This document shows, in pieces, positions 2,508 to 64,000 of a DNA stretch of 64,000 nt; position 1 is the first letter of the stretch, and each line of letters begins with the position of its first letter. Position numbers and translations under genes: made by a program. The notes under the pieces are model-generated. The model had not been told where the DNA came from. It did no database searches and saw only the letters and a program-made list of their open reading frames with translations. Source of the DNA: Streptomyces sp. NRRL S-455. Lineage in GTDB: Bacteria > Actinomycetota > Actinomycetes > Streptomycetales > Streptomycetaceae. The DNA lies in NCBI RefSeq assembly GCF_000717875.1, contig NZ_JOCT01000008.1:1-64000 (forward strand), read 5' to 3'.

Positions 2508-2758
2508 TCGGGGATGATCGCAGAGGTGCGCGAGGCGACGCACAGGAGTTTTCCGCACGACGTCGTGCCCCGGGCTTCCGGTGAGCGGGCACCGGCCGAC
2601 GCCCGTCAGGGACGCGTGGCCGTGCTCGGCATCGCGCCGCCGCCCGAGCCGGGCCACCGCCGGACAACGTTCTGACCTGCAACGGCCGCACGGGTGGCGT
2701 CGGCTTCCCGCACCTGATCCGAGCAGGTCGAGCTGCGAGTTCGGGTACTGTACCGGCC

Positions 2759-3775: not shown

Positions 3776-3865
3776 TCCGCGCTGGACCCCGACGTTGGAT
3801 GAGTTTCCATGATCTTCCATGGTGCAACTCCAACCGCGGCTCATACGTAAATCTTTCCTCACAAG

Positions 3866-3897
3866 TTGACTGCTTTTCACCAAAATTGAGGTACTGT
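3866..3897 (+). promoter_or_regulatory. Candidate levansucrase promoter
   Basis: TTGACT at 3866-3871 and TACTGT at 3892-3897 resemble -35 and -10 elements, but the 20-bp spacing is longer than usual. GGTACTGT also occurs just upstream of the LacI gene. Confidence 0.4.
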
Positions 3898-3903
3898 CAG
3901 CGA

Positions 3904-3917
3904 TGGAACCGGCTCCA
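3904..3917 (+). promoter_or_regulatory. LacI-type operator upstream of levansucrase
   Basis: TGGAACCGGCTCCA is a 14-bp inverted repeat with one mismatched pair and a central CG, the standard shape of a LacI-family operator. It sits just downstream of the candidate -10, about 38 bp before the levansucrase ATG, a position suited to repression by the adjacent LacI protein. Confidence 0.65.
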
Positions 3918-3955
3918 CATCTTCCATTCGTTCCCTCTCCCCCCAAGGGTGACGT

Positions 3956-9212: not shown

Positions 9213-11495
9213 ATGCCCAACCAGACGGGGAATCCCACCGCCGAGGAGCCGCGGCGGCTCGCCGTGCTCGAGGGCGTTCTCGAGCGGATCACGTACGCCA
9301 ACGAGGAGAACGGCTACACGGTCGCCCGGGTCGACACCGGCAGAGGCGCCGGTGATCTGCTCACGGTCGTCGGTGCGCTGCTCGGCGCCCAGGTGGGGGA
9401 GTCCCTGCGCATGGAGGGCCGCTGGGGGTCGCACCCGCAGTACGGCAAGCAGTTCCACGTGGAGAACTACACGACCGTGCTGCCGGCCACCGTCCAGGGC
9501 ATCCGCCGCTACCTCGGCTCCGGCCTGGTCAAGGGGATCGGCCCGGTCTTCGCGGACCGCATCACGCAGCACTTCGGCCTGGACACGCTGCAGATCATCG
9601 AGGAGGAGCCCAAGCGGCTCATCGAGGTCCCCGGCCTCGGCCCCAAGCGGACGAAGAAGATCGCCGACGCGTGGGAGGAGCAGAAGGCCATCAAGGAGGT
9701 CATGCTCTTCCTCCAGACGGTCGAGGTGTCCACATCCATCGCGGTCCGCATCTACAAGAAGTACGGCGACGCGTCGATCTCGGTCGTGAAGAACCAGCCC
9801 TACCGGCTCGCCGCCGACGTCTGGGGCATCGGCTTCCTCACGGCCGACAAGATCGCCCAGTCCGTGGGCATCCCGCACGACAGCCCGGAGCGCGTCAAGG
9901 CGGGCCTGCAGTACGCGCTGTCGCAGTCCACCGACCAGGGGCACTGCTTCCTGCCCGAGGAGCAACTGATCAAGGACGCGGTGAAGCTCCTCCAGGTCGA
10001 CACGGGGCTTGTCATCGAGTGCCTCGCCGAGCTGGCCGAGCCCCCGGAGGACGGCGGGGACCCCGGCGTCGTACGGGAGAAGGTCCCGGGGCCGGACGGC
10101 GGGGAGCCCGTCACCGCGATCTACCTCGTCCCCTTCCACCGCGCCGAACTCTCCCTCTCCGCGCAGCTGCTGCGCCTCCTGGGTACGGAGGAGGACCGGA
10201 TGCCCGGCTTCCGGTCGGTCGACTGGGACAAGGCCCTGAGCTGGCTGAAAGGACGTACGGGTGCCGATCTCGCCCCCGAGCAGCAGGCCGCGGTCAAGCT
10301 CGCGCTGACCGAGAAGGTCGCCGTCCTGACCGGCGGGCCCGGCTGCGGCAAGTCCTTCACCGTCCGCTCGATCGTGGAGCTGGCCCGCGCCAAGAAGGCG
10401 AAGGTCGTGCTCGCGGCCCCGACCGGCCGGGCCGCCAAGAGGCTGTCCGAGCTCACCGGCGCCGAGGCCTCCACCGTGCACCGCCTGCTGGAGCTCAAGC
10501 CCGGCGGCGACGCGGCCTACGACCGTGACCACCCGCTGGACGCCGACCTGGTGGTGGTCGACGAGGCGTCCATGCTGGACCTGCTGCTGGCCAACAAGCT
10601 GGTCAAGGCGGTGCCACCTGGTGCCCACCTGCTCTTCGTCGGGGACGTGGACCAGCTGCCCAGCGTGGGCGCCGGAGAGGTCCTCAGAGATCTCCTGGCC
10701 GACGGGAGCCCGATCCCCGCGGTCCGCCTCACCCGGGTCTTCCGGCAGGCCCAGCAGTCGGGCGTGGTGACGAACGCGCACCGGATCAACGCCGGTCAGC
10801 ACCCGGTCACCGACGGCATGAAGGACTTCTTCCTGTTCGTCGAGGACGACACGGAGGCCGCCGGGCGGCTCACCGTGGACGTGGCGGCCCGTCGCATCCC
10901 GGCCAAGTTCGGACTCGATCCGCGCCGCGACGTGCAGGTCCTCGCCCCCATGCACCGGGGGCCGGCGGGCGCGGGCACGCTCAACGGCCTGCTCCAGCAG
11001 GCCGTCACACCCGGCCGCCCGGATCTGCCCGAGAAGAGATTCGGCGGACGGGTGTTCCGTGTCGGCGACAAGGTCACCCAGATTCGCAACAATTACGAGA
11101 AGGGCAAGAACGGTGTCTTCAACGGCACCGTCGGCGTGGTCACCGCGCTCGACTCGGTCGACCAGCGCCTGACGGTGCTGACGGACGAGGACGAGGAGGT
11201 TCCGTACGAGTTCGACGAGCTCGACGAGCTTGCTCACGCGTACGCGGTGACGATCCACCGCTCCCAGGGCAGCGAGTACCCGGCGGTCGTCATCCCGGTC
11301 ACCACGGGCGCCTGGATGATGCTCCAGCGGAACCTGCTGTACACGGCGGTCACCCGGGCCAAGCAGCTGGTCGTCCTCGTCGGTTCGCGCAAGGCGATCG
11401 GCCAGGCGGTGCGCACGGTTTCGGCGGGTCGGCGCTGCACGGCACTCGACTTCCGGCTCGGTTCAACAAAAAATGATCGATCAAATTGGTCGTGA
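9213..11495 (+). CDS. recD2: RecD2-type ATP-dependent DNA helicase
   Basis: 760 residues, typical of RecD2 (RecD-like helicases in bacteria that lack RecBC). N-terminal OB-like and helix-hairpin-helix region (GSGLVKGIGPVFADRI, VPGLGPKRTKKI), then SF1 motor: Walker A GGPGCGKS at 374-381, Walker B VVVDEASMLD near 447, a motif III GDVDQLPSVGAG and the C-terminal VTIHRSQGSEYPAVVIP motif, with TAVTRAK at the end. It would act in the cytoplasm on DNA ends or gaps. ATG start 35 nt after the DUF397 gene, although a shared transcript is unproven. Confidence 0.93.
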   Translation: MPNQTGNPTAEEPRRLAVLEGVLERITYANEENGYTVARVDTGRGAGDLLTVVGALLGAQVGESLRMEGRWGSHPQYGKQFHVENYTTVLPATVQGIRRYLGSGLVKGIGPVFADRITQHFGLDTLQIIEEEPKRLIEVPGLGPKRTKKIADAWEEQKAIKEVMLFLQTVEVSTSIAVRIYKKYGDASISVVKNQPYRLAADVWGIGFLTADKIAQSVGIPHDSPERVKAGLQYALSQSTDQGHCFLPEEQLIKDAVKLLQVDTGLVIECLAELAEPPEDGGDPGVVREKVPGPDGGEPVTAIYLVPFHRAELSLSAQLLRLLGTEEDRMPGFRSVDWDKALSWLKGRTGADLAPEQQAAVKLALTEKVAVLTGGPGCGKSFTVRSIVELARAKKAKVVLAAPTGRAAKRLSELTGAEASTVHRLLELKPGGDAAYDRDHPLDADLVVVDEASMLDLLLANKLVKAVPPGAHLLFVGDVDQLPSVGAGEVLRDLLADGSPIPAVRLTRVFRQAQQSGVVTNAHRINAGQHPVTDGMKDFFLFVEDDTEAAGRLTVDVAARRIPAKFGLDPRRDVQVLAPMHRGPAGAGTLNGLLQQAVTPGRPDLPEKRFGGRVFRVGDKVTQIRNNYEKGKNGVFNGTVGVVTALDSVDQRLTVLTDEDEEVPYEFDELDELAHAYAVTIHRSQGSEYPAVVIPVTTGAWMMLQRNLLYTAVTRAKQLVVLVGSRKAIGQAVRTVSAGRRCTALDFRLGSTKNDRSNWS

Positions 11496-11673
11496 AGGTC
11501 ACAAGGCTCTTCCAGAAGGAGGACACAGGGGGCAGGATGAGCAAGTTGACGGCACTCAGTGCCGCCGATGGGCCCGATGGTCGACCCCGAGTGCACTCTC
11601 CTGAGCCGAGTGGGGGATGGTAGAGACAGTCAGGGCACCTCGAAGATGAGGCACAACGTCGGTGAGGGAAGAC

Positions 11674-49045: not shown

Positions 49046-49543
49046 ATGGTCGTCAGCGTCGGCGGAGTGCCGCTGGGTGCCGAGGACGGAGCACCTGCCC
49101 CGGCGCGGCCGGCAGCGGTGGGCAGAACACGGCGGGACCTGGCGCGCGGACTGTACTCCTGCGCGCTCATCGCCGCCCTGACCTCAGCGTCCGCCGCTTC
49201 CCGGCCCCGGCTCCCCCGACCCGGGACCGCCGCGGGTGACACGGCCTTCGACGTCGCGTACCGCGGCCGCCGCATCCGCGGCCGGTGGTTCCCCGGGTGC
49301 GGCACAGCCGAGGACGGCCGGTGGCATGTCACCGTGGACGGCCGCCCCCTGCATCTGATGCGCCGCGCCGACGGCACCTGGCTGAGCATGGTGGACCACT
49401 ACTGTTCGTACCCGACACCGATCGAGGCGGCCCGCGCCGCCGTCGACGAACTCGGTCCCGGTCAGCGGCTGCGCGCCCTGGTTCCGCAACCGGCGGACGG
49501 TGGGCACCTGAACACGGGTCACCAGCATGGCGTACGTGCGTAA
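49046..49543 (+). CDS. melC1: Tyrosinase copper chaperone MelC1
   Basis: 165 residues, ATG preceded by GAGGAG. An N-terminal twin-arginine-type signal (RTRRDLARGLYSCALIAALTSASAAS) leads to the MelC1 domain: FDVAYRGRRIRG, VTVDGRPLHLMRRADGTWLSMVDHYCSYPTPIEAARAAVDELG and the closing GHQHGV. MelC1 binds apo-tyrosinase, delivers two coppers and carries it through the Tat pathway. It overlaps melC2 by 17 nt. Confidence 0.92.
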   Translation: MVVSVGGVPLGAEDGAPAPARPAAVGRTRRDLARGLYSCALIAALTSASAASRPRLPRPGTAAGDTAFDVAYRGRRIRGRWFPGCGTAEDGRWHVTVDGRPLHLMRRADGTWLSMVDHYCSYPTPIEAARAAVDELGPGQRLRALVPQPADGGHLNTGHQHGVRA

Positions 49544-50393
49544 GGACGCCGCCACGCTCACCAGGGCGGAGAAGCGCCGGTTCGTCAAGGCGCTGCTGGA
49601 GCTCAAACGGCGAGGCGAATACGACGAGTTCGTGCGCCTGCACATCGCGCACTTCGCCTCCGACGGTGAGCACGGACTGCGCACCGCGCACATGGCGCCT
49701 TCCTTCCTGCCCTGGCACCGCCAGTTCCTGCTCGAACTGGAGCGCGCCCTACGCCGAGTGGACTCGTCGGTGACCCTGCCGTACTGGGACTGGACACGCG
49801 ACCGCACGACCACCTCCGCCCCCTGGACGGCGGACCTTCTCGGCGGCAACGGGCGCCGCTCCGACCGCCAGGTGATGACAGGTCCGTTCGCCTACCGGGA
49901 GGGCGACTGGACCATCAAGGTGGGCGTCACCGACGAGAAGTTCCTCACCCGCGACCTCGGCAGCCCGCGGGCCCCGGCCGGCCTGCCCACGAAGAGGGAA
50001 CTGGAGTGGGCGCTGAAGGAGCCCACCTACGATGTGGCGCCCTGGGACTCGACGGTCACACGAGGCTTCCGCGGCAGACTGGAGGGCTGGGGCAGCGGCC
50101 GGGGCAAGGCCTCCTGGCGCAATCACAACCGAGTGCACCGCTGGGTCGGCGGGGCCATGCTCGGCGCCGCCTCCGTCAACGATCCCGTCTTCTGGCTGCA
50201 CCACGCCTTCATCGACCTGCAGTGGTACCGCTGGCAACGCCGTCATCGCGGAGCCCGCTATCTCCCCGCCACACCGCCGGGCCCTGACGACGAGCAGCAC
50301 GGCCGGATCGTGGCCCGGCACCAGAAGCTGCCGCCGTGGGACGTGTCGCCGGACGAACTCGAGGACGTCGGCCGGATCTACCGGTACGGGTGA
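49527..50393 (+). CDS. melC2: Tyrosinase MelC2
   Basis: 288 residues, normal length for Streptomyces tyrosinase (about 273) plus a short insert. Six copper ligands are visible: CuA His39, His55, His64 (RLHI, TAHMAP, PWHRQF) and CuB His200, His204, His226 (NHNRVHRW, LHHAFID). No own signal; it leaves the cell in complex with MelC1. It oxidises monophenols and diphenols, giving melanin. A bidirectional terminator separates it from the convergent chaplin gene. Confidence 0.95.
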   Translation: MAYVRKDAATLTRAEKRRFVKALLELKRRGEYDEFVRLHIAHFASDGEHGLRTAHMAPSFLPWHRQFLLELERALRRVDSSVTLPYWDWTRDRTTTSAPWTADLLGGNGRRSDRQVMTGPFAYREGDWTIKVGVTDEKFLTRDLGSPRAPAGLPTKRELEWALKEPTYDVAPWDSTVTRGFRGRLEGWGSGRGKASWRNHNRVHRWVGGAMLGAASVNDPVFWLHHAFIDLQWYRWQRRHRGARYLPATPPGPDDEQHGRIVARHQKLPPWDVSPDELEDVGRIYRYG

Positions 50394-50410
50394 GCGAGGC
50401 GCGTCCAAGA

Positions 50411-50446
50411 GGAGAGCCCCGGCGTTCCAGGACGCCGGGGCTCTCC
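50411..50446. terminator. Bidirectional terminator between melC2 and chaplin
   Basis: Perfect 15-bp arms GGAGAGCCCCGGCGT / ACGCCGGGGCTCTCC with a 6-nt loop in the 70-bp convergent gap. Confidence 0.88.
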
Positions 50447-50463
50447 GCTGAGGACGAAGAACG

Positions 50464-50970
50464 TCAGAGGCCGTAACCCTGGAGAACCTTCTCGGCGTTC
50501 TTCTTGAGGTCCTTCTTGTCGTGCTTGTCGGCGTGCGCCTTGTGCTGCTTGTCGGCGTTCTTCTTGAGGTCCTTCTTGTCGTGCTTGTCGGCGTGCGCCT
50601 TGTGCTGCTTCTCGTCGTGCTTCTTGACGTCCTTCTTGACGTCCTTCTTGTCGTGCGCCTTGTGCTGCTTCTTGTCGTGCTTGTCGTGCTTGTCGCGCGC
50701 CTCGTGCTTCTTGTGGTGCTTCTTCTCGCCCTCGTTGTTCTCGCAGACGCTGCCGGCGGCCCGGTTGAGACCGCCCAACACGGTGACGGTGTTCCCGCAC
50801 ACGTTGATCGGCACGTGGATCGGGACCTGGATCACATTGCCGGACAGGTAGCCGGACGACTTGTACGCAGCGGCCTTGGCGTCGGCGTCCGCCGCGGCGA
50901 CACCGGGCAAGCTGAGCACAACGGCGCCCGCGCCGAGAGCGAGAGTGCCAACCTTCGCGATGCGAGACAT
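50464..50970 (-). CDS. Short chaplin with a Lys/His-rich repeat tail
   Basis: 168 residues. Signal peptide (cleavage near AAA-DA, residue 27) and one chaplin domain (about 37-78) with SGNVIQVPIHVPINVCGNTV and GSVCEN, both cysteines present. Normal short chaplins stop here; this one goes on for about 90 residues of Lys, His, Asp and Ala with three 20-residue repeats (101-160, KQHKAHADKHDKKDLKKNAD type). No LAXTG signal. The chaplin part should form amyloid-like sheath fibres on aerial hyphae; the tail could bind metal (Cu, Zn) or anionic wall polymers. Homologues in S. coelicolor near melC are short chaplins (from memory, ChpG). Confidence 0.88.
   Translation of the reverse strand: MSRIAKVGTLALGAGAVVLSLPGVAAADADAKAAAYKSSGYLSGNVIQVPIHVPINVCGNTVTVLGGLNRAAGSVCENNEGEKKHHKKHEARDKHDKHDKKQHKAHDKKDVKKDVKKHDEKQHKAHADKHDKKDLKKNADKQHKAHADKHDKKDLKKNAEKVLQGYGL
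50491..50670 (-). repeat. 60-bp tandem repeats in the chaplin tail
   Basis: Two near-identical 60-bp units (50491-50550 and 50551-50610) and a third diverged one code for the 20-residue Lys/His repeat. The unit length is a multiple of three, so expansion leaves the frame intact. Confidence 0.85.
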
Positions 50971-51289: not shown

Positions 51290-51559
51290 ATGCGCAAGTA
51301 CCAGAAGGCCGCGGTCGTCGCGGCCATGCTCGGCAGCGTCAGCTTCCTGGGTGCCGGCGTCAGCCACGCGGGCGACGACGGCCACAAGCTCAAGCTCGAC
51401 AGCGACCAGACCCAGCTGTGCTCCGCGGACGAGGTGAACATCGTTGGCACCGAAGCGGCGGACACCTTCGCTCCGACCAACGCCGCGGGCAACCAGTTCC
51501 TCGACGCGAGCGACCGCAACACGGTGAACTGTGCCCAGATCTTCGGGCTCGGCAGGTAA
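51290..51559 (+). CDS. Small secreted protein, array member 1
   Basis: 89 residues. Signal peptide MRKYQKAAVVAAMLGSVSFL with GAGVSHA, cleavage near residue 27. The mature part of about 62 residues has two cysteines (LCSADE, VNCAQI) and the pattern CSADEVNIVGTEAADTFAPTNAAGNQFLD. The family resembles the small MRKxQKAAV secreted proteins frequent in Streptomyces; function unknown. First of four tandem paralogues, with GGAGAGG as ribosome site. Confidence 0.8.
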   Translation: MRKYQKAAVVAAMLGSVSFLGAGVSHAGDDGHKLKLDSDQTQLCSADEVNIVGTEAADTFAPTNAAGNQFLDASDRNTVNCAQIFGLGR

Positions 51560-51717: not shown

Positions 51718-51780
51718 ACAGTGAGAACTGTCGGTGACCAGCCCATTACGGACTGTGTCGACGCGAGAAACGGAGACGTA
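51718..51780 (+). promoter_or_regulatory. Conserved leader of array member 2
   Basis: Begins with the inverted repeat ACAGT-GAGA-ACTGT. The 60 bp before the ATG (51721-51780) match 52419-52478 at 55 of 60 positions by direct count. Confidence 0.7.
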
Positions 51781-52053
51781 ATGCGCAAGTACCAGAAGGC
51801 CGCGGTCGTCGTGGCCATGCTCGGCAGTGTCAGCTTCCTGGGCGCCGGTGTCGGTCACGCTGACGGGGACCCGAAGGTCAAGCTCGACAACAAGCAGAGC
51901 CAGAAGTGCTCGGCGGACGAGGTCAACATCACGGGCAGCGACCTGGCCGACACCTTCGCTCCGACCAACGCCGCGGGCATCCAGGTCGTCGACCAGAGTG
52001 AGCGCACGTCGGTGGAGTGTGCTCAGCTCTTCACCATCGGCGGTAAGCACTGA
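51781..52053 (+). CDS. Small secreted protein, array member 2
   Basis: 90 residues from the ATG at 51781 (AACGGAG upstream). The signal peptide is almost identical to member 1 and the mature part GDPKVKLDNKQSQKCSADEV then NITGSDLADTFAPTNAAGIQ has two cysteines at matching positions. Closest to member 3, with which it shares both coding sequence and the 60-bp leader, so the two are a recent duplication. Confidence 0.82.
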   Translation: MRKYQKAAVVVAMLGSVSFLGAGVGHADGDPKVKLDNKQSQKCSADEVNITGSDLADTFAPTNAAGIQVVDQSERTSVECAQLFTIGGKH

Positions 52054-52109: not shown

Positions 52110-52418
52110 TGCTTGGGGCGAGGTCGGGTCCCCGCGGCCTTGGGCGCGATCGCGGCGGCGTCCTGCCGGGGCGGCAGTCGGTTCACCCCGGGATGTTTGC
52201 AACGCGGGTGACCATGTCCGCCAGGTCGTCGTCGGATCCCGCGATCATGCGCAGCCGGCGTGACGTACTGCGCGGCGAGCCTGTCCGGCATGGCCTGGAT
52301 GGTCGGCTCGCTTGCCTGCTTGCGGACGCCGCAGCAAGTGCCTCCCGTGACGGAAACCTCTCGAGATAAGTGCGCAATGGGCGTTTCGCGTGGCAAAAAA
52401 CCAGAAAGGCCCCTTAAG
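52110..52418. other. Spacer between array members 2 and 3
   Basis: About 310 bp without a gene I can support. A 64-codon minus-strand open frame (52183-52377) has no recognisable family. The sequence does not resemble the other, shorter spacers of the array, so it may be inserted or decayed DNA. Confidence 0.45.
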
Positions 52419-52478
52419 GTGAGGACTGTCGGTGACCAGCCCGTAACGGACTGTGTCGACGTAAGAAACGGAGACGTA
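52419..52478 (+). promoter_or_regulatory. Conserved leader of array member 3
   Basis: 55 of 60 positions identical with 51721-51780, including GACTGTCGGTGACCAGCCC and the AACGGAGACGTA before the ATG. Confidence 0.7.
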
Positions 52479-52745
52479 ATGCGCAAGTACCAGAAGGTCG
52501 CAGTCGTCGCGGCCATGCTCGGCAGTGTCAGCTTCATGGGTGCCGGTGTCGGTCACGCTGACGGGGACCCGAAGGTCAAGCTCGACAACAAGCAGAGCCA
52601 GGAGTGCTCGGCGGACGAACTCAACATCACGGGCACCGAGGCGGTTGACACCACCGCATTCACCAACGCTGCCGGTCTCCAGTTCGTCGACCAGAGCAAG
52701 CACAAGTCGGTGGAGTGCACTCAGCTCTTCACCATCGGCCGGTAA
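52479..52745 (+). CDS. Small secreted protein, array member 3
   Basis: 88 residues. Signal peptide as in member 2 and the mature part GDPKVKLDNKQSQECSADEL then NITGTEAVDTTAFTNAAGLQ, two cysteines. Its start, chosen by the conserved leader, is identical in context to member 2. Followed by a matching terminator. Confidence 0.82.
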   Translation: MRKYQKVAVVAAMLGSVSFMGAGVGHADGDPKVKLDNKQSQECSADELNITGTEAVDTTAFTNAAGLQFVDQSKHKSVECTQLFTIGR

Positions 52746-53010: not shown

Positions 53011-53283
53011 ATGCGCAAGTTCCAGAAGGCGGCAGTCGCCGTTGCCATGCTCGGCAGCGTCAGCTTCCTGGGCGCTGGCGTCAGCCACGCTGCGGGCGGG
53101 GACTCGAAGACCAAGGCCGACAACACCCAGCAGAACCAGAAGTGCTCCTCGGATGAGGCCTATTGGGGACTGGTCAACGTCGGTGACGTGAATCTCGTGG
53201 TCAACCTCCTCGGCGTCCAGTACGTCGACCAGAGCGAGCACAAGTCGGTGAAGTGCGCTCAGGTTGTCCCCGCCGGCAAGTAG
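53011..53283 (+). CDS. Small secreted protein, array member 4
   Basis: 90 residues. Signal peptide MRKFQKAAVAVAMLGSVSFL, then GAGVSHA. The mature part is more diverged (KCSSDEAYWGLVNVGDVNLVVNLLGVQYVDQSEHKSVKCAQ) but keeps both cysteines and the VDQSEHKSVxCxQ ending of member 3. The VNVGDVNLVVNLLGV stretch resembles the other MRKxQKAAV proteins of the genus. Confidence 0.82.
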   Translation: MRKFQKAAVAVAMLGSVSFLGAGVSHAAGGDSKTKADNTQQNQKCSSDEAYWGLVNVGDVNLVVNLLGVQYVDQSEHKSVKCAQVVPAGK

Positions 53284-53787: not shown

Positions 53788-55560
53788 GTGCTGGAAATCG
53801 TGAGTGACACCATCAGCCACCATCTCGCTCGGGCCGCAGCACGAACACCCGACGAGACAGCGTTCACTTTCGTGGACTTCAGCACCGACCGCGACGGAGT
53901 CCCTTCCACTCTGACGTGGCGCCAACTGGAGCGGCGGGTACGCACCCTCGCGACGGCCCTGCGCCACGCCGGGGCGGCCGGTGAGCGCGTGGCCATCGTG
54001 GCGCCGCAGAACCTCGACTACGTGGTCGGCTTCATCGCGGCCACGTGCGCCGGCGCGATCGCCGTTCCCCTGTTCCCCCCGGCCCTGCCGGGTCATGCGG
54101 AGAAGCTCGCCGCAGCGCTCGCGGACGCCGACCCGGTGCTGGCCCTCACCAGCCCCGACTCGCTCCAGGCCGCGGAGAAGTTCTGCGCCGACCAGGACGG
54201 TCTGCGCGTGCGCGTGGTCACCGAGCAGGACCTGCTCTCAGAGTCGGTGTCAGGGGGCGTACCGGAGGGTGGAGAGACGTTTCACCCGCGCCCCGAGGAC
54301 TGTGCCTATCTGCAGTACACCTCCGGCTCCACCCGCGTGCCGTCCGGGGTGGAGATCACCCATGCCAACGTCTGTGCCAACGCACGCCAGGCCCTGGAGG
54401 CGTACGACATCCGCACCGGGCGCAACCGCACCGTCGGCTGGCTTCCGCTGTATCACGACATGGGGCTGGTACTGGCGATCGCGATGCCCATCGTCGGCCA
54501 CGTTCCCTCCGTTCTCATGGAGCCGTTGGCCTTCGTGCAACAGCCCGTCAGATGGCTGCGTCTGCTCACCCAGTACCCGGGAGCCCTCACCGCCGCTCCC
54601 AACTTCGCCTTCGACTACTGCGTGCGCCGCGTCACCGACGAGGAGCGCGGCGAGCTGTCACTGGGTTCGGTCGCCGCCATGGTGAACGGCAGTGAACCCG
54701 TCGCCGAGCAGACGCTGCGACGGTTCCAGGAGGCCTTCGCACCCGTCGGCATGGTCCGCACCGCCATGCGCCCGTCCTACGGACTGGCCGAGGCGACCGT
54801 GTTCGTCGCCGCCTCACCGGCCGGGCAGGAGCCGACCGTCACCTGCTTCGACCGTGACGCGCTGGCGGACGGCACCGCCCGGGTGGTCGAGGCCACCGAA
54901 ACGCGGGCCGTGACCCGCCTGGTCGGATGCGGACAGCCGAACGGTCAGGAAGCCGCCATCGTCGACCCGGTCACCCGGGTCCGTCTGGAGGACGGGCACG
55001 TCGGCGAGGTCTGGCTGCGCGGACCCAACGTGGGACGGGGCTACTGGGGGCGCGCGGAAGAGAGCGAAGCCACCTTCCGCGCCACCCTCCACGGCGACCG
55101 CGCCCAGCAGCACTGGCTGCGGACCGGCGATCTCGCACTGCGGCACGACCAGCAGCTCTACATCACCGGCCGCATCAAGGACCTGGTGATCATCGACGGC
55201 ACCAATCACTATCCGCAGGACATCGAGCAGACCGTCGAGGGCGCCCACCCGGCCGTACGCCGTCACCACACCGCGGCGTTCTCCGTTCTCACCGACGACG
55301 GAGAACGTCTCGTCGTCGTCGCCGAGCACGCCCGTGACCTCGCGGTGTCCGAGGGGGTCCTGGACGAGGTGACTCGTGCCGTCCGTGCGGCGGTGTCCGC
55401 CGGTCACGCCGTCGCCGTCCATGACTTCGTCCTGGCCGAGCCCGGCACCGTACCCCACACCACGAGCGGCAAGGTCGCCCGCGGAGCATGCCGCGAGCGC
55501 TACCTCCAGGGGGCCTGGAGCTCGGACACGCGAGGACAGAGAGCGGGAGTCACCGCATGA
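53788..55560 (+). CDS. Fatty acyl-AMP ligase (FAAL), FadD32-like
   Basis: About 590 residues from the GTG at 53788 (a second GTG lies at 53800; GAAGG at 53771-53775 favours neither strongly). Adenylation domain with TSGST (178-182), WLPLYHDMGLVLAIAMPIVG, the FAAL-type NGSEPVAEQTLRRF, AMRPSYGLAEATVFV, RGPNVGRGYWGR, RTGDLAL, and IKDLVIIDGTNHYPQDIEQTVE. This set is FAAL and not acyl-CoA ligase. FAALs activate a fatty acid as acyl-AMP and pass it to a PKS acyl carrier. Its stop overlaps the PKS ATG (ATGA), and the PKS begins with an ACP, the natural acceptor. FadD32 serves Pks13 in the same way. Confidence 0.9.
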   Translation: MLEIVSDTISHHLARAAARTPDETAFTFVDFSTDRDGVPSTLTWRQLERRVRTLATALRHAGAAGERVAIVAPQNLDYVVGFIAATCAGAIAVPLFPPALPGHAEKLAAALADADPVLALTSPDSLQAAEKFCADQDGLRVRVVTEQDLLSESVSGGVPEGGETFHPRPEDCAYLQYTSGSTRVPSGVEITHANVCANARQALEAYDIRTGRNRTVGWLPLYHDMGLVLAIAMPIVGHVPSVLMEPLAFVQQPVRWLRLLTQYPGALTAAPNFAFDYCVRRVTDEERGELSLGSVAAMVNGSEPVAEQTLRRFQEAFAPVGMVRTAMRPSYGLAEATVFVAASPAGQEPTVTCFDRDALADGTARVVEATETRAVTRLVGCGQPNGQEAAIVDPVTRVRLEDGHVGEVWLRGPNVGRGYWGRAEESEATFRATLHGDRAQQHWLRTGDLALRHDQQLYITGRIKDLVIIDGTNHYPQDIEQTVEGAHPAVRRHHTAAFSVLTDDGERLVVVAEHARDLAVSEGVLDEVTRAVRAAVSAGHAVAVHDFVLAEPGTVPHTTSGKVARGACRERYLQGAWSSDTRGQRAGVTA

Positions 55561-58500
55561 AGCAACCAGGCGGACACCGGGAGCCCACGATGGCCGGTCG
55601 CTCCCGACCGGACGTCACCGCACTGCGGAACGCGCTGGTCCGGATGGTCTCGGACATCAGCGGCCTCTCCCCGGAACAGCTCGACGACGCCCGCCCCCTG
55701 GCGGAGTACGGCCTCACCTCGCGCGACGCCGTCGGACTGACCGGCGAGTTGGAGAAGTTACTGGACCGGTCGCTGCCCGCCACGTTGCTGTGGGAACACC
55801 CCACGATCGGACAACTGGTCAGCGCTCTGTCGACCCCTGACACCGCTGACACCGCCGACACCGCGGAGACCGACGAGCAGTCGGACACGTCCGGCGAAGC
55901 GGCCACGGCCGGCACGGCCGGCACTGACGACCACGCCGTCGCGATCATCGGCATCGGCTGCCGTCTGCCCCCGAACGTGCAGGGACCGGACGCGCTCTGG
56001 GAGCACCTTCTGGCAGGAACGGACGCGATCGGCCAGGTGCCCTCGGGACGCTGGCGGAACTTCACCGGCACCGCGCCCGACGCCACCACCTTGATGGAAT
56101 CCACCACACAGCGGGGCGCCTTCCTCGACGACATCGAGGGCTTCGACGCGGACTTCTTCGGCATCACGCCCCGCGAGGCCGAAGTCATGGACCCCCAGCA
56201 ACGGCTGGTGCTCGAAGTCGCCTGCGAGGCGCTGGACCACGCCGGCGTTCCCGCGCACGCCCTCCGGTCCACCCGCACCGGCGTCTTCGTCGGCCTGAGC
56301 GCCCTCGAGTACGGGCAGCTGACCACCTCCGACCCCGCGCGCCTGACACCGTGGACCAGTACCGGAGCCGCCGGCAGCATCGTCGCCAACCGCGTGTCCT
56401 ACCTGCTCGATTTCCGCGGCCCCAGCATCACCGTCGACTCGGCCTGTTCGTCGTCGCTCGTAGCCGTGCATCTGGCCTGTCGCAGTCTGCGCGGCGGGGA
56501 GTGCGACACGGCACTGGCCGCGGGGGTCAACGTGCTCCTGTCGCCGGCGGTCACGGCATCGTTCGAACAGGCCGGTGCGCTGGCCGCGGACGGCAGGTGC
56601 AAGCCCTTCGACGCCGCGGCGGACGGCATCACCCGTGGTGAGGGCTGCGGCGTCGTCGTGCTCAAGCGTCTCGCCGACGCCCGGCGCGACGGCGACCGGG
56701 TGCTCGCCGTCGTCAGGGGTACCGCCGTGAACCAGGACGGCCGGTCGGCGGGCCTCATGGCACCCAACCCGGCGGCGCAGGAGGAACTGCTGCGCGACGC
56801 CCTGCGGGACGCGCGGCTCGACGCCGCCGACATCGACTACGTCGAAGCGCACGGGACGGGGACCCTGCTGGGAGACCCCATCGAAGCAGCCGCTCTCGGA
56901 GCGGTCGTCGGCCGCGGCAGACGGCCCGACCAGCCCTTGCTCATCGGATCGGTCAAGAGCAACCTGGGCCACCTCGAAGGCGCGGCCGGCATCATCGGAC
57001 TGATCAAGACCGCGCTGGCCCTGCATCACGGCCGCATCCCGGCCACGCTCCATTTCCGCAGCCCCAACCCCCACATCGACTTCAGCGAACTGGGCCTGCG
57101 CGTGGTCAGCGAACCGACCGCCTGGCCCGCACGGGGGAGCCGTACGGGGCGCGCCGGCGTGTCCGCGTTCGGCTTTGGTGGCACGAACGCCCACGCCGTC
57201 CTCGAGCAGGCGCCGTCCACCGTCGCGGGTCCCGCGCGGCCATCGGCGACCCACGGCCGAGAAGGCGGCCGAGAAGCCGGACAAGAAGCCGGCCAAGGAG
57301 ACGACCAAGAGGGGGGTCGGCCGCACGTTCTGGTGGTGTCCGCCCGTTCCGCGGAGCGGATCGCCGACGTGGCCGCGAGTCTGTCGCGCTGGGTGGCCGC
57401 CGGTGACGCGCCCTCGCTCACCGATATCGCCCACACCCTCGCCGCGCACCGCCGTGGCCCGTCCTGCGCCGCCGTCGTCGCGCGGACCCGCCCCGAGGCG
57501 GCCGCCAAGCTCGCCGCGCTGGCCCGGGACGAGACGGTCCCCGGCGTGGTCGCCGCGTGCACCGACGCGGGAGCGGCCCAGTCGGGCACAGCGCGCCGAC
57601 CGGTCTTCGTCTTCTCCGGCTACGGCTCACAGTGGAAGGGCATGGGGCGGCGGTTGCTGACCGGTGACTCCCGCTTCGCCGCCCAGGTGGCCGCGCTCGA
57701 TCCGGCCTTCCACGCGGAGACCGGCTCCTCACTGACCGACCTGATCACGGTCGATTCCGGCCGCACGGTGGACCGTACCCAGCCACTGCTCTTCGGCATC
57801 CAGCTGGCCCTGGCGCAGACCATGCGGGCCTACGGCGTGGAACCCGCTGCCGTCATCGGCCATTCGATGGGCGAAGTCACAGCCGCCGTGGTGGCGGGCG
57901 CTCTCGACGCCGCCGACGGACTGCGCGTCATCGCCCGCCGATCGGCGCGCCTCGCCGGCATCGACGCCGAACAGGCCGGCGCGATGGCCGCGATCGAGCT
58001 GCCCGCACCGTCCCGGACGGACGTTCTCGGCCGCTTTCCCGGTGTGGAGGTCGCCGTCCACTCCTCGCCGGAACGCTGCACGGTGGCCGGGCCGGCCGGT
58101 GCGGTGCGCGACCTGGTGGACGAGTTGTCCGAGCAGGGTCACCTCGCCCGGCTGCTGGAGGTCGGCGGAGCCGGACACTCGGCCGCGGTCGATCCCATCC
58201 TGCCGCCCCTGCGCGAGGACCTCGGCGCTCTGCGCCCGAGCGCAGCCACGACGCCCTGGTACAGCACGGTCCTCGAGGATCCCCGCGCGGTCCCGGCCGC
58301 CGATGCGGATTACTGGTGCGCCAACGTCCGCCGCCCGGTGCGTCTGCACCAGGCGGTGACCGCGGCAACCGAAGACGGCCACACCCTGTTCCTGGAGATC
58401 TCGCCCCATCCCATCGCCGTCGTCCCCCTCACCGAGACGCTCGACGCCACAACGGTGGGGGACCAGGCCCTGGTCGTCCCGACCCTGCACAAGAACGCGG

Positions 58501-61500
58501 ACGACACCGTCGCCCTGCGCGCCGCACTGGCGAGGCTGCACTTCGCGGGCGTCACGATGAGTACCGGTCTGTGGCCCACAGGAGGCCGCACCGAGCTGCC
58601 CACCCCGGCCTGGCGGCACAGACGGTTCTGGTTCTCGCGCACCGCCGCCTCGACCGCGGTCGGCGGGCATCCCTTGCTGGGTGTGCGTACCGACGACCCG
58701 CGGACCGGCGTCGTGCTGTGGCAAGGAGACGTCGGTACCCGTCGGCACCGCCCCGGGAGTACGGTCCACGACCGAGCGGTGCTGACCCTCGCCGAGGCCG
58801 CGGAGCTGGTGATCGAGGCCGGCCTGGAGCTGTGGGGCCGAGAGGGCCTCACTCACCTCGGCGTCGAGGACCTGAAGATCCACCAGTGGCTCGCCCTCTC
58901 CAGCAGCACTCCGCTGACCGTGGTGTGGGAACCGGCCTCCGGTACACACGGGACCGTCACCCTGCACGCCCGCGGCACCGGCACGGCCTGGCGCTGCTAC
59001 GCCTCGGCCCGTATCACCCGCGATCCGGAACCCCCGCGCGAGGATCCGGAGCCCCGGCGCGAGCTCCACCCCGCGGAACAGGCCACGGACTTGGTTCAGC
59101 CCTTCACCCCTGAGGACCTGCCGCACCCGCGCGGGCCGTTCTACGGGTATCTGCTGACGGCCATGCTGGAAGCGCTGGGTGCCGCGGGAGCCACCGCGCA
59201 CGCCGTCCCGGTCGCGGTACGGACCTTGGACATCAAGGGGCCGGGTCTCCTCGACAGCGGATACGACATCCGCCGCACGCCCGCCGACCCCGACGGCAGC
59301 CTCTGGCACGTCACCGCCCAGGGCGCCGAGAGCGAGCTGGTCGCCCGGTTCGTCCAGCTCCGTCCCATCGAGCATCACGAGGTACCCCGGCCCCTGGAGA
59401 CGTGTGCCTACGACATCCAGTGGCAGAAGTCCACCGTCCCCCTGCCGCTGGACCTGCACCGTGCCCTTCTCCTGAGCGACGAAGGGGACGCCGCGGGCGG
59501 TGGCATCACGGCCTCGCTCGCCTCGGCCCTGGAAGCCGGGGGCGTCGACGTCACGCAGGCCCGCGGCGACGCCTGCGACGCCGTACTCGACACCTGGCTG
59601 GAGAACCCGCGGGACGACGGCCCGAGCGCCGTCGTCCTGCTCTTCCCCCAGCACGAACGCGACGACGACATGCGGCCCCTGCGCACGGCGGCACGGGTGG
59701 CCCGCCGCCTGGCCGGGGGCGCCGACCGGCAACCGCCGCGCCTGTGGATGGCCACCGTGCTGGCACAGGCGACGGGCCCGGGGGAGCCCGGGGTGCCGCA
59801 TCTCGCCTGTCTGCGTGGGCTCGTCCGCGTCATGGCACTCGAACACCCCCAGTTGCGCACCTCGCTGGTGGACATCGACAAACAGCCCGGTGCGGTCGGT
59901 GACCTCGTCCAGGAGCTTCTCGCCGACGGCGACGCCGATGAGATCGCCTGGCGGGCCGGCACCCGCCTCACCGCCCGTCTCGCCCGTGCCGACCTCGCCC
60001 CCCAGGGCAACGGCGGCGTGGCGTTCACCCGTCCTGACGGCGCCTACATCGTCACCGGCGGGCTGACCGGCCTGGGCCTGGCGACCGCGGGGCGGCTCGC
60101 CGAGCAAGGGGCCGGGCGTATCGTCCTGAACGGACGTCGTGCCCCCGGGCCCGAAACCCAGTCCGTCCTGGCCGAGCTGCGGGACCGGGGAGTCTCCGTC
60201 GCCGTGGTCCGGGGCGACATCGCGGAACCGGATGTCGCCGCCGGCCTGGTGGCCGCCGCTGTCGGAGAAGGGCACACCCTGCGAGGCATCGCGCACTGTG
60301 CCGGTGTTCTGCACGACCGCCTGATCACGGACCTCGAGCCCGCGGACCTCGACCACGTGCTGCGGCCGAAGACCGTCGGGGCCCGGAACCTGGAGGCGGC
60401 CGTCGACGGCCATGACCTGGACTGGTGGGTGATCTACAGCTCCGCCGCGGCACTGATCGGCTCACCGGGACAGTCCGCGTACGCGGCCGCCAACGCCTGG
60501 CTCGACGCCATGGCTCACCACCGCAGATCCTCCGGCCGGCCGGCGACCTCCATCGCCTGGGGCCCCTGGGAGAACGTCGGCGCGGCGGCCGCGAACCCGG
60601 CGTCGGCCCTGGAGCCCATCCACCTGGCCGAGGGAATGGACGCCCTGCAGGCGCTCGTCACCCTCGACCGTACGCATGTCGGCGTCGTGCACCTCGACGC
60701 GGGTCGTGTCCTGGCGGCGTTCCCCGGTCTGTCAGCCATCCCCTTCTTCAACGACGTTCTCGAGGACAGCGCGGTCGGCGCCGACGACTGGGTGGGCCCG
60801 GCCGGCATCGCGGCTCTCGGCGGCTGCGCCCCGGAGATGGTGTACGCCCGCCTGGTCAAGAGGACGGCGGCCATCATGGGGTTCAGCGCCCACGAACTCG
60901 ACGAGACGACCGCGCTGACCGAACTCGGACTGGACTCCCTGATGGCGGTGCGGATCCGCAACGCCCTGCGCCAGGACTTCGGCGTCGACCTGCCCGGCCC
61001 CCGCCTGCTGCGAGGCGCCTGCCTGCGTGAACTTGGTGGCGCGGTGCTGGAACAACTCGGCCTCGGCTCCGAGGTACCCACGGCCGCCTCCTCACCGGCA
61101 GGGCCCGACAACGTCCGGCAGGCACCGCCGTCCGCACCCCCGCTGCCCGGTTCCCTCAGCGCCCGGGACCCGGCCGAGCGGCTGGTCGCGAGCGCCTGGT
61201 CCGAGGTTCTGCGGCGCGGACCCAGGGACGTGCACGAGGACTTCACCGCCGCCGGCGGAGACCGACGCGCCGCCGAGGCCATGGTGGACGTCATCCGCCG
61301 GCGGCTGGGCGACGACACGGAGCTGAGCCTGACCGGCGAGGCCGTTCTCGCCCACCGGACCGTCGCGGCCGTCGCCGAACTGATCCGGCCGGTGGTCAAC
61401 CGAACCGGCCCGTCGGCACTCACCACCCTGCGCCCCGCCGTCCCCGGCGCACCGCGGCCCCCGCTGTTCACCTTCCACCCGGCCGGCGGACCGACCTCGG

Positions 61501-62240
61501 TCTACCTGCCGTTGACGGGGCTGCTGCCGGCCCACCAGCCGGTGTACGGGCTGGAACGCGTCGAAGAGCTGAACACCGTGGAGGACAAGGCGGCCCACTA
61601 CCGCGCGCTCATGCGTGACATCCAGCCGGAAGGGCCCTACCACCTGCTCGGCTGGTCCTTCGGAGGATGCCTGGCGTACGAGGTGGCTCGTCAACTGGGC
61701 GAAGAGGGACAGGAGGTCGGGTTCCTCGGGCTGATCGACACCATCCTGCCCGCGGCTCTGCCGCAGCAGGATTCACCGGAGCTGCTGCTGGAGCGCTTCG
61801 GCCGTTTCGCCGAGTACATCGAGAAGACGTACGGCCACCGCCTGGACCTGCCCTACGAAGAGCTGGCGGCCACGCCGGACGAGCGGCAGATCGACGTGAT
61901 CATGCGACTCGTGGCCGACGCCGGCCTCGACATGAGCCCCGGGGTCATGGAGCACCAGCGGACCTCGTACGTCGACGCCCGCGTCGGCGAACGGTACGTC
62001 CCCCGTCCGCACGACGGCCCCGTGGTGCTCTACCGCGCCCAGCGACCGCAGGAGCTCACCACCGCTCTGGACCCGCGCTACCTCCGGCAGGAGGCGGACC
62101 TGGGGTGGGCGCCCCTGTGCCGGTCCCTGGAGATCGTCCCCGTCGAGGGCGACCACCTGTCCCTCATCGACCCACCCCATGTCGAGACCATCGCGCGGCA
62201 CCTCGTCCGGGCCATCGGGTCGCTGACCGACGACCGCTGA
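55557..62240 (+). CDS. Type I PKS with Pks13-like thioesterase, ACP-KS-AT-(DH)-KR-ACP-(CP)-TE
   Basis: 2227 residues. Loading ACP (Ser55 in YGLTSRD); KS with Cys297 (DSACSSS), His432 (HGTGT) and His472 (NLGH); AT with Ser770 (GHSMGE) and substrate motif GAGHS (872-875); a DH-like region (about 1030-1290) with GGHPLLG but lacking the HxxxGxxxxP motif (H1071 then DRAVLTLAE); KR with TGGLTGLG (1500-1507), Ser1628/Tyr1642/Asn1646 and LHD (1585-1587); ACP Ser1794 (LGLDSL); a second carrier-like domain whose Ser is Arg1903 (GGDRR); TE Ser2034 (GWSFGG), His2200. TE stretches FHPAGG, YGLERVE and [11 protein letters not shown] resemble Pks13. It would condense a FAAL-supplied acyl chain with an alkylmalonyl unit, reduce the ketone and release or transfer the acid. 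Leu68 is a TTA codon, so bldA control is likely. Confidence 0.9.
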
Positions 62241-62245
62241 GCCAC

Positions 62246-62278
62246 GCCTGTTCCGTGGGGATCACCCGCGGAACAGGC
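62246..62278. terminator. Bidirectional terminator between PKS and Ccr
   Basis: 14-bp arms GCCTGTTCCGTGGG / CCCGCGGAACAGGC (one wobble or mismatch) with a 5-nt loop. It overlaps the last codons of the convergent ccr gene. Confidence 0.75.
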
Positions 62279-63584
62279 GCAACCGCTCCTCACCCATCCG
62301 GGCACGTGCCTCCGGGTCGGTGACACCGAGGTCGGGACGGGGGGCCAGACACAGCACACCGACCTTGCCGATGTGCTGGTTGGTCTGGACAGTCCGGGTG
62401 GCCGCGCCCACCTCCGCCAGCGGGTACGTCCGCGACAGGGCGGGAACCACGCTGCCCATGCTGATGAGCCGGTTGACCTCGCACTGCTCGTGAAGGTTCG
62501 CGCCGTGACTGCCGATGATCCGCTTCAGCCGCATCCACAGGTACCGGTTGTCGTAGGTGTGCTCGTAGCCGGTACTGGATCCGCAGGTGACGACCGTTCC
62601 GCCGCGCCTGGCCAGGAACACGGAGGCCGCGAAGGTGGCCCTGCCGACGTGCTCGAACACGATGTGCGGGTCCTCTCCGACCGCGTCGCGGATCGCCCGT
62701 CCCATCTTCTTCCAGCCCTCGGGACGCTGCAGGAGTGTGTCGTCCCCGCCCAGGACCTCCTGGCGGTTGATGACCGCGTCGCATCCCAGCGACCGGAGCA
62801 GACGTGCCTTCTCGTCGGAATTCACCACGCCGACCGGGATACCGCCTCCGCCCCGCACCAGTTGGACCGCGTAGGAGCCCAGCCCGCCGGTCGCGCCCCA
62901 GACCAGCACGATGTCGCCCTGCTTCATCCGCGCGCCGCGGTCGCTGACCAGCATGCGGTACGCCGTACTCGCACACAGCGGGTTGACGGCCGCTTCCTCC
63001 CAGGTCAGAGCGGGAGGCTTCGGCATCAACTGGCTGGCCCGGACGACGGCGTAGTGCGCCAGACCGCCGAAGTTCGTCTCGAACCCCCACGCCTTCTGCC
63101 CGAGCCCGAGCATGCCGTCGTGGTGCGTGTCGGGGTCCTGCTCGTCGACATAGGCCGGCGAGATCGAGACATGATCACCGACCTTCCACCTGCGCACGGA
63201 CGATCCGGTACGGACGATGACGCCCGAAGCGTCGGAACCCACGATGTGGTACGGCAGATCGTGCCGCGCCTGCCATCCTCCGGCCTTCCCCATCTCCTTG
63301 AGGAACTGGAAGGTGGGCAACGGCTCGAACATGGCCGTCCAGACCGTGTTGTAGTTGATGGCACTGGCCATCACGGCGATCAGAGCCTCGTCGGGGGCGA
63401 GTTCCGGCATGGGAACGTCCGCTACGCTGAGGGACTTGCGCACGTCCTTGTCCTCGACGCCCTCGAACATGCCGACATCGTCGGCGCGCACACAGGCCGC
63501 CGGGAAGTGGTCCGGGAGGGGGAGGGACTCGAGGTCCGCTGCGTCCGCACCCGCGATGACCGCTTCGGACAGGGGCGATGTCAT
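62262..63584 (-). CDS. ccr: Crotonyl-CoA carboxylase/reductase
   Basis: 440 residues from ATG 63584 (TTGGAGCC upstream); longer frames run into the divergent promoter. Medium-chain reductase of the Ccr family: SAINYNTVWTAMFEPLPTF, YHIVGSDASGVIVRTG, INPAYVDEQDP-type segment, WGFETNFGGLAHYAVV, NPLCASTAYRMLV, VWGATGGLGSYAVQL for NADPH, and MRLKRIIGSH. The next residues read GANLHE; Ccr enzymes for ethylmalonyl-CoA usually read FANYRE, so Gly361 replaces a bulky Phe and may widen the acyl pocket. Ccr carboxylates enoyl-CoAs reductively, giving alkylmalonyl-CoA extender units for the neighbouring PKS. Confidence 0.9.
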   Translation of the reverse strand: MTSPLSEAVIAGADAADLESLPLPDHFPAACVRADDVGMFEGVEDKDVRKSLSVADVPMPELAPDEALIAVMASAINYNTVWTAMFEPLPTFQFLKEMGKAGGWQARHDLPYHIVGSDASGVIVRTGSSVRRWKVGDHVSISPAYVDEQDPDTHHDGMLGLGQKAWGFETNFGGLAHYAVVRASQLMPKPPALTWEEAAVNPLCASTAYRMLVSDRGARMKQGDIVLVWGATGGLGSYAVQLVRGGGGIPVGVVNSDEKARLLRSLGCDAVINRQEVLGGDDTLLQRPEGWKKMGRAIRDAVGEDPHIVFEHVGRATFAASVFLARRGGTVVTCGSSTGYEHTYDNRYLWMRLKRIIGSHGANLHEQCEVNRLISMGSVVPALSRTYPLAEVGAATRTVQTNQHIGKVGVLCLAPRPDLGVTDPEARARMGEERLRLFRG

Positions 63585-63725
63585 GTCGGCTCCAATCTTG
63601 ATCACGTCTGACGACTGTTCCCAAGAGAACCGCTGATCCGATGCCCCGCAACCGCTGCTCTGCTGTACGGGCGACTGCCCGCTGTCGAACGGAGTGTCTG
63701 CCGGTGGCGGACGGTGTGCGCCGTC

Positions 63726-64000
63726 ATGCTCCCAGCCGTGTGGTCCTATTTTCTGAAGTATCTGAGAACGCAGCTGGTGTGTCTCGGGCTCGTCGCCGCT
63801 CTCGTCTCGACCGGGGCGCATGCGGCTGAACGGAGCCCGGAAGGCACGCCCGGGCCTCCCGGTGCGGAGGCCCGTGTCACCGCCGTGAGAACGATCGACG
63901 ACCGGACGCGCGATCTCACGGTGAGTTCGCCGGCCATGGGAAGGTCCATCCCGGTCCGTGTCATTCTTCCGGCGAGCTGGAGCGAGCGGCCGGAAGCGAC
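63726..64000 (+). CDS. N-terminus of a secreted esterase with antigen-85-like start (partial, runs off the right edge)
   Basis: 91 codons are visible from the ATG at 63726 and the frame stays open to the edge. Signal peptide: LKYLRTQLVCLGLVAALVSTGAHA, cleavage near residue 33. The mature start DLTVSSPAMGRSIPVRVILP resembles the N-terminus of antigen 85 mycolyltransferases (VPSPSMGRDIKVQF) and related secreted esterases of the same alpha/beta-hydrolase family. The catalytic residues lie beyond the window. Divergent from ccr by 141 bp. In M. tuberculosis, fbp genes for antigen 85 lie next to fadD32-pks13, so this may transfer the PKS product to a wall or soluble acceptor. A plain secreted esterase is the alternative. 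Confidence 0.65.
   Translation, partial: MLPAVWSYFLKYLRTQLVCLGLVAALVSTGAHAAERSPEGTPGPPGAEARVTAVRTIDDRTRDLTVSSPAMGRSIPVRVILPASWSERPEA

Follow-up and report, generated by a model that had tools for sequence, protein, structure and literature searches.

A candidate mycolate-like lipid locus in Streptomyces with a ketoreductase-bearing Pks13-type synthase

The first 64,000 nucleotides of contig NZ_JOCT01000008.1 from Streptomyces sp. NRRL S-455 (the whole stretch analysed, hereafter the window) end in four genes, coding for a fatty-acyl-AMP ligase (FAAL), a polyketide synthase (PKS), a Ccr-family reductase/carboxylase and an antigen 85 (Ag85)-fold esterase, which probably act together to join a long fatty acid to an alkylmalonyl unit and reduce the product to an alpha-alkyl-beta-hydroxy acid that would be passed to a sugar. 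The enzymes, their layout, their intact motifs and their conserved clustering can be read directly from the DNA. The mycolate condensation locus of Mycobacteriales has the order fadD32-pks13-accD4, with fbp/Ag85 genes nearby, and we know of no mycolic acids in Streptomyces. The four-gene set and its coordinates stand as given in an initial annotation of this DNA, to which the minus strand of the Ccr gene is added here. The single enzymes are of known kinds; their combination, the Pks13 layout with a ketoreductase (KR), and the spread beyond mycolate makers look new.

Recurrence of the gene set and type of its synthase

We scanned 84,980 species genomes for the thioesterase (TE) of the PKS and kept the best 80 of 84, which led to 78 loci for analysis, with our own added and L081, a TE without a ketosynthase (KS), dropped; L041 and L042 are identical copies. 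Groups A (27 loci, Streptomycetaceae) and B (28 loci, other families) have a KR, and groups S (3 loci, metagenome-assembled genomes (MAGs) of Solirubrobacteraceae/Patulibacter) and C (20 loci, all but one titled Streptomyces) are without it; the latter two include loci cut by contig ends, and L068 holds only the TE part of the PKS. A FAAL gene is present in 77/78 loci, an esterase gene in 66/78, a DHA2-type major facilitator superfamily (MFS) gene in 50/78, and a glycosyltransferase gene in 18/78, all of these in group A. Such a TE occurs in 19 of the 121 sampled Streptomyces genomes (our own included), in 4 of them at group A strength. Because the TE recurs in 78 loci with the ligase adjoining in all but one, the gene set is not a chance assembly. 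The opposing view, that these are common Streptomyces genes which became neighbours by chance and resemble the mycolate locus by accident, was already disfavoured and appears to us very improbable: each enzyme class is indeed common in Streptomyces, and Ccr lies on the opposite strand, but the set recurs in several families, down to Svornostia (L065, FAAL-PKS-esterase-MFS), and Ccr and the AccD-type carboxylase are never found together.

The TE (61461-62204, plus strand, like the other PKS domains below) groups with Pks13, as initially predicted, and not with ordinary thioesterases of PKSs or non-ribosomal peptide synthetases (NRPSs). Among all solved structures, seven distinct Pks13 sequences match it over the whole domain with 204-210 bits, the next chain having 91, and the TE family hidden Markov model (HMM) yields 203-240 bits on seven Pks13 proteins and at most 98 on controls. 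In a quick tree of 90 TEs, Pks13 and every cassette TE fall on one side (SH-aLRT 93), with three other TEs of the same genome on the other, where the outgroup branches are long. The part comprising the TE and the degenerate carrier domain before it has 17 matches in 72,556 plasmid records, and among the best 15 of the 17 the top three belong to Rhodococcus and Tsukamurella, both annotated pks13, and to Nocardia. Locus L029, titled a Bifidobacterium breve MAG, clusters tightly in the TE tree with Svornostia and a Solirubrobacteraceae MAG, and its contig is therefore probably mislabelled or contaminating. In addition to pks13, Mycolicibacterium komossense encodes another Pks13-type TE, within a frame of 518 aa (G001:C49:417668-418768), and no KS was found in this 16.8-kb locus (L081).

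By Pfam domains, the PKS (55557-62240, plus strand) consists of an acyl carrier protein (ACP), KS, acyltransferase (AT), dead dehydratase (DH), KR, ACP, dead ACP and TE. It was aligned in 118 rows, comprising our own protein and 117 of the 120 relatives listed, out of 7,284 over threshold in total; these 117 are the same kind of PKS, a few of them incomplete, and the long modular PKSs P0122-P0124 were left out. The N-terminal ACP (55632-55826, GLTSRD) keeps its carrier Ser in 114/118 rows, with 4 gaps, the KS (55935-57056) its Cys, His and His in 117/118, with 1 gap, and the C-terminal ACP (60843-60989) its GLDSL in all 118, while the AT Ser and the Ser/Asp/His motifs of the TE are kept across the rows with few exceptions. 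The AT (57603-58553, Pfam) has the small-residue motif GGAGHS. The KR (60039-60572; PF08659, 6.8e-58) retains K, S and N in 118/118 rows and Y in 114/118. Two further domains are decayed: the N-terminal half of a DH (psi-DH, 58668-58970; PF21089, 5.7e-7), in which the His of HxxxGxxxxP is kept in 102/118 rows and the Gly is replaced by Val in 110/118, and an ACP adjoining the TE (61140-61403), with GGDRR where GGDS is expected and thus no carrier Ser. The layout first described, ACP-KS-AT-ACP-TE plus a KR, was correct in what it named and left out both the degenerate DH before the KR and the degenerate carrier before the TE.

In published Pks13, a DH* stands behind the AT and a non-functional ACP ahead of the TE, and the layout shows no KR (PMC11649247). 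Both the four working domains (N-terminal ACP, KS, AT and C-terminal ACP) with intact active residues and the non-functional ACP beside the TE are present in the window PKS. The dead-ACP family HMM gives 34-42 bits on 7/7 Pks13 proteins and at best 19 bits on 113 control frames, drawn from seven other PKS stretches, three TE stretches and three long PKSs. This control replaced a weak first one, in which 0/6 other PKSs matched, because those six rows (983-1990 aa) are cut at locus ends. For the dead DH, a profile-profile comparison with the DH* region of Pks13 gave a moderate probability of 57, or 79 with the linker included, and less than 1 for five control regions; single-sequence HMM searches for DH* in Pks13 gave matches that were not significant. 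The KR HMM matches 0/7 Pks13 proteins, and the window PKS has a KR with an intact motif. The best NCBIfam model of the whole protein is Pks13 (NF040607), and the domain comparisons support a Pks13-type condensing enzyme with a built-in KR, the KS of which does not appear specifically Pks13-like.

Partner enzymes and the predicted product

The FAAL gene (53788-55560, plus strand) starts with GTG at 53788, and its stop overlaps the PKS start in an ATGA at 55557. Its product matches Pfam AMP-binding (4.6e-62) and the DIP2-like AMP domain; in NCBIfam it scores 586 and 578 bits with FAAL subfamilies and 543 bits with FadD32, all under the cut-offs. The top solved structures are two chains named “Acyl-CoA synthase” (459 bits), which we take to be FadD32 of M. 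smegmatis, followed by FadD32 with 443 and 439 bits. The protein is a FadD32-like FAAL that would load a fatty acid onto the N-terminal ACP of the PKS.

The Ccr gene (62262-63584, minus strand) exceeds the TIGR01751 cut-off of 379 with 547 bits, and its best structural match is 4a0s, an octenoyl-CoA reductase/carboxylase that is presumably CinF of the cinnabaramide pathway (657 bits, the next, crotonyl type, having 497). A second Ccr, 54% identical, is encoded elsewhere in the same genome. The AT motif, xAGH, is found as GAGHT in 2 of 7 Pks13 proteins, the other five having GASHT, and six other PKSs have AFH (3) or ASH (3). We take xAGH to point to a longer alpha branch, as the octenoyl-type Ccr does too. 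The contrast drawn initially between Ccr here and an acyl-CoA carboxylase in mycobacteria extends to the relatives, in which an AccD-type gene appears in place of Ccr: Ccr is present in 24/78 loci, AccD in 25/78 and both in none (Fisher 1.2e-5, kinship ignored), and the two, each able to supply alkylmalonyl-CoA, still substitute for each other among loci. No weight is placed here on a joint evolution of AT motif and extender gene, as there are only two changes of the motif along the tree: in group A the G of xAGH is found in 17/17 loci with Ccr or AccD and 3/10 without (Fisher 1.4e-4; the 17 include L019, in which Ccr is truncated at the end of the locus and which is not among the 24), and an independent-pairs test could not reach significance. 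In L009, a short Ccr-like stretch (11160-11597, minus strand; 53% over 147 aa) occupies the place where relatives have a full Ccr; it is possibly a decaying Ccr, beside a PKS with the AT motif AVH.

The esterase gene starts at about 63714 on the plus strand and is cut by the window edge (63714-64000), and on the same contig (C8, 176,740 bases) it is complete, ending at C8:64751 and coding for 345 aa. Its motifs GLSMGG, YYSDW and GTHSWPYW correspond to the GxSxGG-like nucleophile, YSDW and HSWxYW of antigen 85, and the Ag85 fold extends over the full length, as judged from the 90% identical homologue of S. djakartensis JCM 4957 (L007), with other esterase kinds scoring close behind Ag85 (Foldseek/VIA-align). 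Completed in this way, the protein belongs in both sequence and fold with antigen 85 and the mycoloyltransferases, as proposed from its 5′ part. Its N-terminus looks like a signal peptide, and the protein may be secreted. Further downstream, outside the window, lies a GT1 glycosyltransferase gene (C8:66787-68019), which together with the Ag85 fold of the esterase suggests a sugar acceptor.

Every substrate and product is inferred from these parts, as are the export of the esterase and the sequence in which release, glycosylation and acyl transfer would occur. The ligase would turn a fatty acid into acyl-AMP and load it onto the N-terminal ACP, while the alkylmalonyl-CoA that the AT would place on the C-terminal ACP would come from Ccr, through reduction and carboxylation of a 2-enoyl-CoA that may be octenoyl-CoA. 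The KS would then condense the fatty acyl chain with the alkylmalonyl unit, and the KR would form a beta-hydroxyl, which is expected to survive because the KR looks active and the DH-like domain, lacking its motif, does not. The Pks13-type TE might free the acyl chain by transfer or hydrolysis, the glycosyltransferase, which is lipid glucosyltransferase-like, could glycosylate a lipid hydroxyl, and the secreted esterase could pass the acyl group on to the hydroxyl of a sugar, so that a glycolipid resembling glucolipsin would result.

Several results limit this reading. The PKS scores 1337 bits with the Pks13 model, under its curated cut-off of 2100 bits, and seven mycobacterial-type loci score 2624-2831. 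The ligase likewise falls under the curated cut-off of FadD32 (NF038339; 543 vs 975 bits), although the named FadD32 structures among its four best matches agree with the counterpart relationship claimed at first. Over the whole PKS chain, mycocerosic acid synthase comes close to Pks13 (878 vs 923 bits), and the KS family HMM gives 596 bits on L157, a mycobacterial multi-module PKS (G001:C49:115917 onward), and 447-505 bits on seven Pks13 proteins; the better fit of L157 hints at a separate history of the KS. The esterase has LHGGADD in place of the DGLRA loop, which makes the trehalose and oxyanion contacts, and the loop is absent from every cassette esterase row aligned. It is also absent in 9 of 26 rows from mycolate-type genomes, some of which repeat one gene, and is therefore not defining for every Ag85 member. 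Finally, Streptomyces has already yielded alpha-branched beta-hydroxy acids, as constituents of glucolipsin (PMC4365757).

Two other products have to be weighed. The PKS might iterate, building up a longer branched acid of the ordinary polyketide type that is released by simple hydrolysis, with the esterase serving as a hydrolase for breakdown or self-protection; for its KS and AT, other mycobacterial synthases, mycocerosic acid synthase among them, are nearly as close as Pks13 or closer, and the esterase fold includes hydrolases too. However, there is no route to a reduced chain, because an enoylreductase is absent and the dehydratase is degenerate, and an N-terminal ACP with a FAAL nearby in nearly all loci suggests that loading happens once for each product, which makes iteration quite improbable. 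Alternatively, in place of a secreted glycolipid, the locus could supply the cell envelope with a miniature mycolate layer, in which a short mycolate-like acid forms an ester with trehalose or with a sugar of the wall. This agrees with the secreted-protein-like N-terminus of the esterase, the Ag85 fold of its homologue and the Pks13-type TE, the mycobacterial counterpart of which loads trehalose (PMC11649247), but the loss of DGLRA, the patchy occurrence among Streptomyces genomes, which is more in keeping with an accessory metabolite than with an envelope component, and the clustering of GT1 and DHA2-type MFS genes with the cassette render it unlikely, though less so than iteration. We thus retain the condensed and reduced acid, passed to a sugar, as the preferred reading.

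Neighbourhood and possible origin

Between the esterase and glycosyltransferase genes lies a methyltransferase-domain open reading frame (ORF; C8:64722-66596, minus strand), downstream of the window; L006 has an ORF of the same type at 2723-4597, L007 and L011 have a similarly sized gap there, and in L008-L010 and L012-L014 the glycosyltransferase follows the esterase by at most about 60 bases, counted from matched ends. On the other side, the lipid locus is adjoined by a MelC1-tyrosinase pair and then an opposite-strand chaplin-type gene (49046-50970; chaplin gene 50464-50970), as well as by four related tandem ORFs on the plus strand (51290-51559, 51721-52053, 52260-52745 and 53011-53283) that have no Pfam matches, the first and last of which are about 90 aa long in translation, with a signal-peptide-like start and two late cysteines. 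A connection of the lipid locus with sporulation, entertained in the initial annotation, was dropped as unsupported, because relatives of the chaplin gene occur in just 3/79 clustered loci (our own, L015 and L022); the small secreted neighbours likewise each occur in 3/79. In several KR-less Streptomyces loci (L067-L082), genes for HATPase, Roadblock/LC7, ATP-binding and P450 proteins stand in a row downstream of Ccr, in what we take to resemble a conservon.

Gene order links the cassettes with mycolate loci. In five mycobacterial-type pks13 loci FAAL, Pks13 and AccD are consecutive, with Ag85-type genes in the same stretch in four; in the fifth (G066) such a gene is located beyond the stretch analysed, some 6 kb away from pks13; in 19 of the 25 AccD-bearing relatives AccD also follows the PKS. 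Genome G051 combines FAAL, a KR-bearing PKS, AccD, esterase and MFS genes. The Solirubrobacteraceae/Patulibacter MAG loci (L035, L036 and L039) have FAAL, a KR-less Pks13-like PKS and AccD in the mycobacterial pks13 order, followed by an MFS gene in 2/3. The KR is absent from Pks13, from group S (0/3) and from group C (0/19); group S keeps the dead DH and dead ACP in 3/3, and group C has the dead DH in 0/19 and the dead ACP in 4/19.

The TE, the dead ACP and the gene order would be explained most simply by losses of the KR in separate lines from a KR-bearing ancestor, with the root, the placement of Pks13 and a shared history of the domains insecure. In a quick KS tree, Pks13 is placed among the cassettes, beside Solirubrobacterales and G051 (SH-aLRT 81), while the outgroup row L101, a 3772-aa mycobacterial PKS, stands beside group A; a single clade of cassettes and Pks13 only is not rejected (p-AU 0.51). 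Because of the placement of L101, this p-AU value and the preference of the KS HMM, the KS gives no support for descent of Pks13 from the cassette family. Tentatively, and with a confidence somewhat short of even, we propose that the mycolic-acid condensing machine is older than the mycolate envelope and began as a KR-bearing glycolipid synthase, of which Pks13 would be a KR-losing descendant. With the same reserve, the ancestral set in ordinary actinobacteria may have comprised FAAL, an ACP-KS-AT-DH-KR-ACP-ACP-TE synthase, AccD or Ccr, and an Ag85-type esterase, and the dead DH and dead ACP of Pks13 may be scars, reduction having moved to a separate enzyme.

Comparison with known systems

If the proposed function is correct, mycolate-type chemistry would exist in bacteria thought to be without it, and new alpha-branched glycolipids might be obtained from them. 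It would also become possible to test why Pks13 has a dead dehydratase and a dead carrier domain, a puzzle in tuberculosis research, and the KR-bearing relatives from Streptomyces and Pseudonocardiaceae could serve as safe stand-ins for studying Pks13-type thioesterases and Ag85-type acyltransferases.

The lipstatin pathway of Streptomyces also yields an alpha-alkyl-beta-hydroxy acid from two fatty acyl chains, with FabH-like enzymes and an NRPS in place of a Pks13-type PKS. The nearest known product type, which we propose as an analogue and not as the product itself, is the macrodiolide glucolipsin (also spelled glucolypsin) from Streptomyces purpurogeniscleroticus and Nocardia vaccinii, described as a glucose dimer with 2-methyl-3-hydroxy iso-fatty acids esterified at glucose C6 (PMC4365757). 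A mass from a coculture of Actinokineospora and Rhodococcus has also been assigned to glucolipsin (PMC7918646), and the cassette is present in three Actinokineospora loci (L043, L054 and L059), a coincidence of genus that may serve as a lead. Unlike the 2-methyl acids of glucolipsin, the window product would have a longer alpha branch, as its Ccr points to, and the link would be one of product type. Among the literature matches listed, which mostly lay outside subscription journals, we found neither a glucolipsin gene cluster nor a description of the cassette.

The mycolate locus of Mycobacteriales differs from the window locus in several respects: here the PKS has an internal KR, Ccr replaces AccD, the esterase is without DGLRA, a GT1 gene is alongside, the Pks13 and FadD32 cut-offs are missed, and the KS is not specifically Pks13-like. 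What both have in common is the association of a FAAL, a synthase with ACP, KS, AT, a possibly DH*-related domain, ACP, dead ACP and TE in this order, an alkylmalonyl-forming enzyme and an Ag85-fold esterase.
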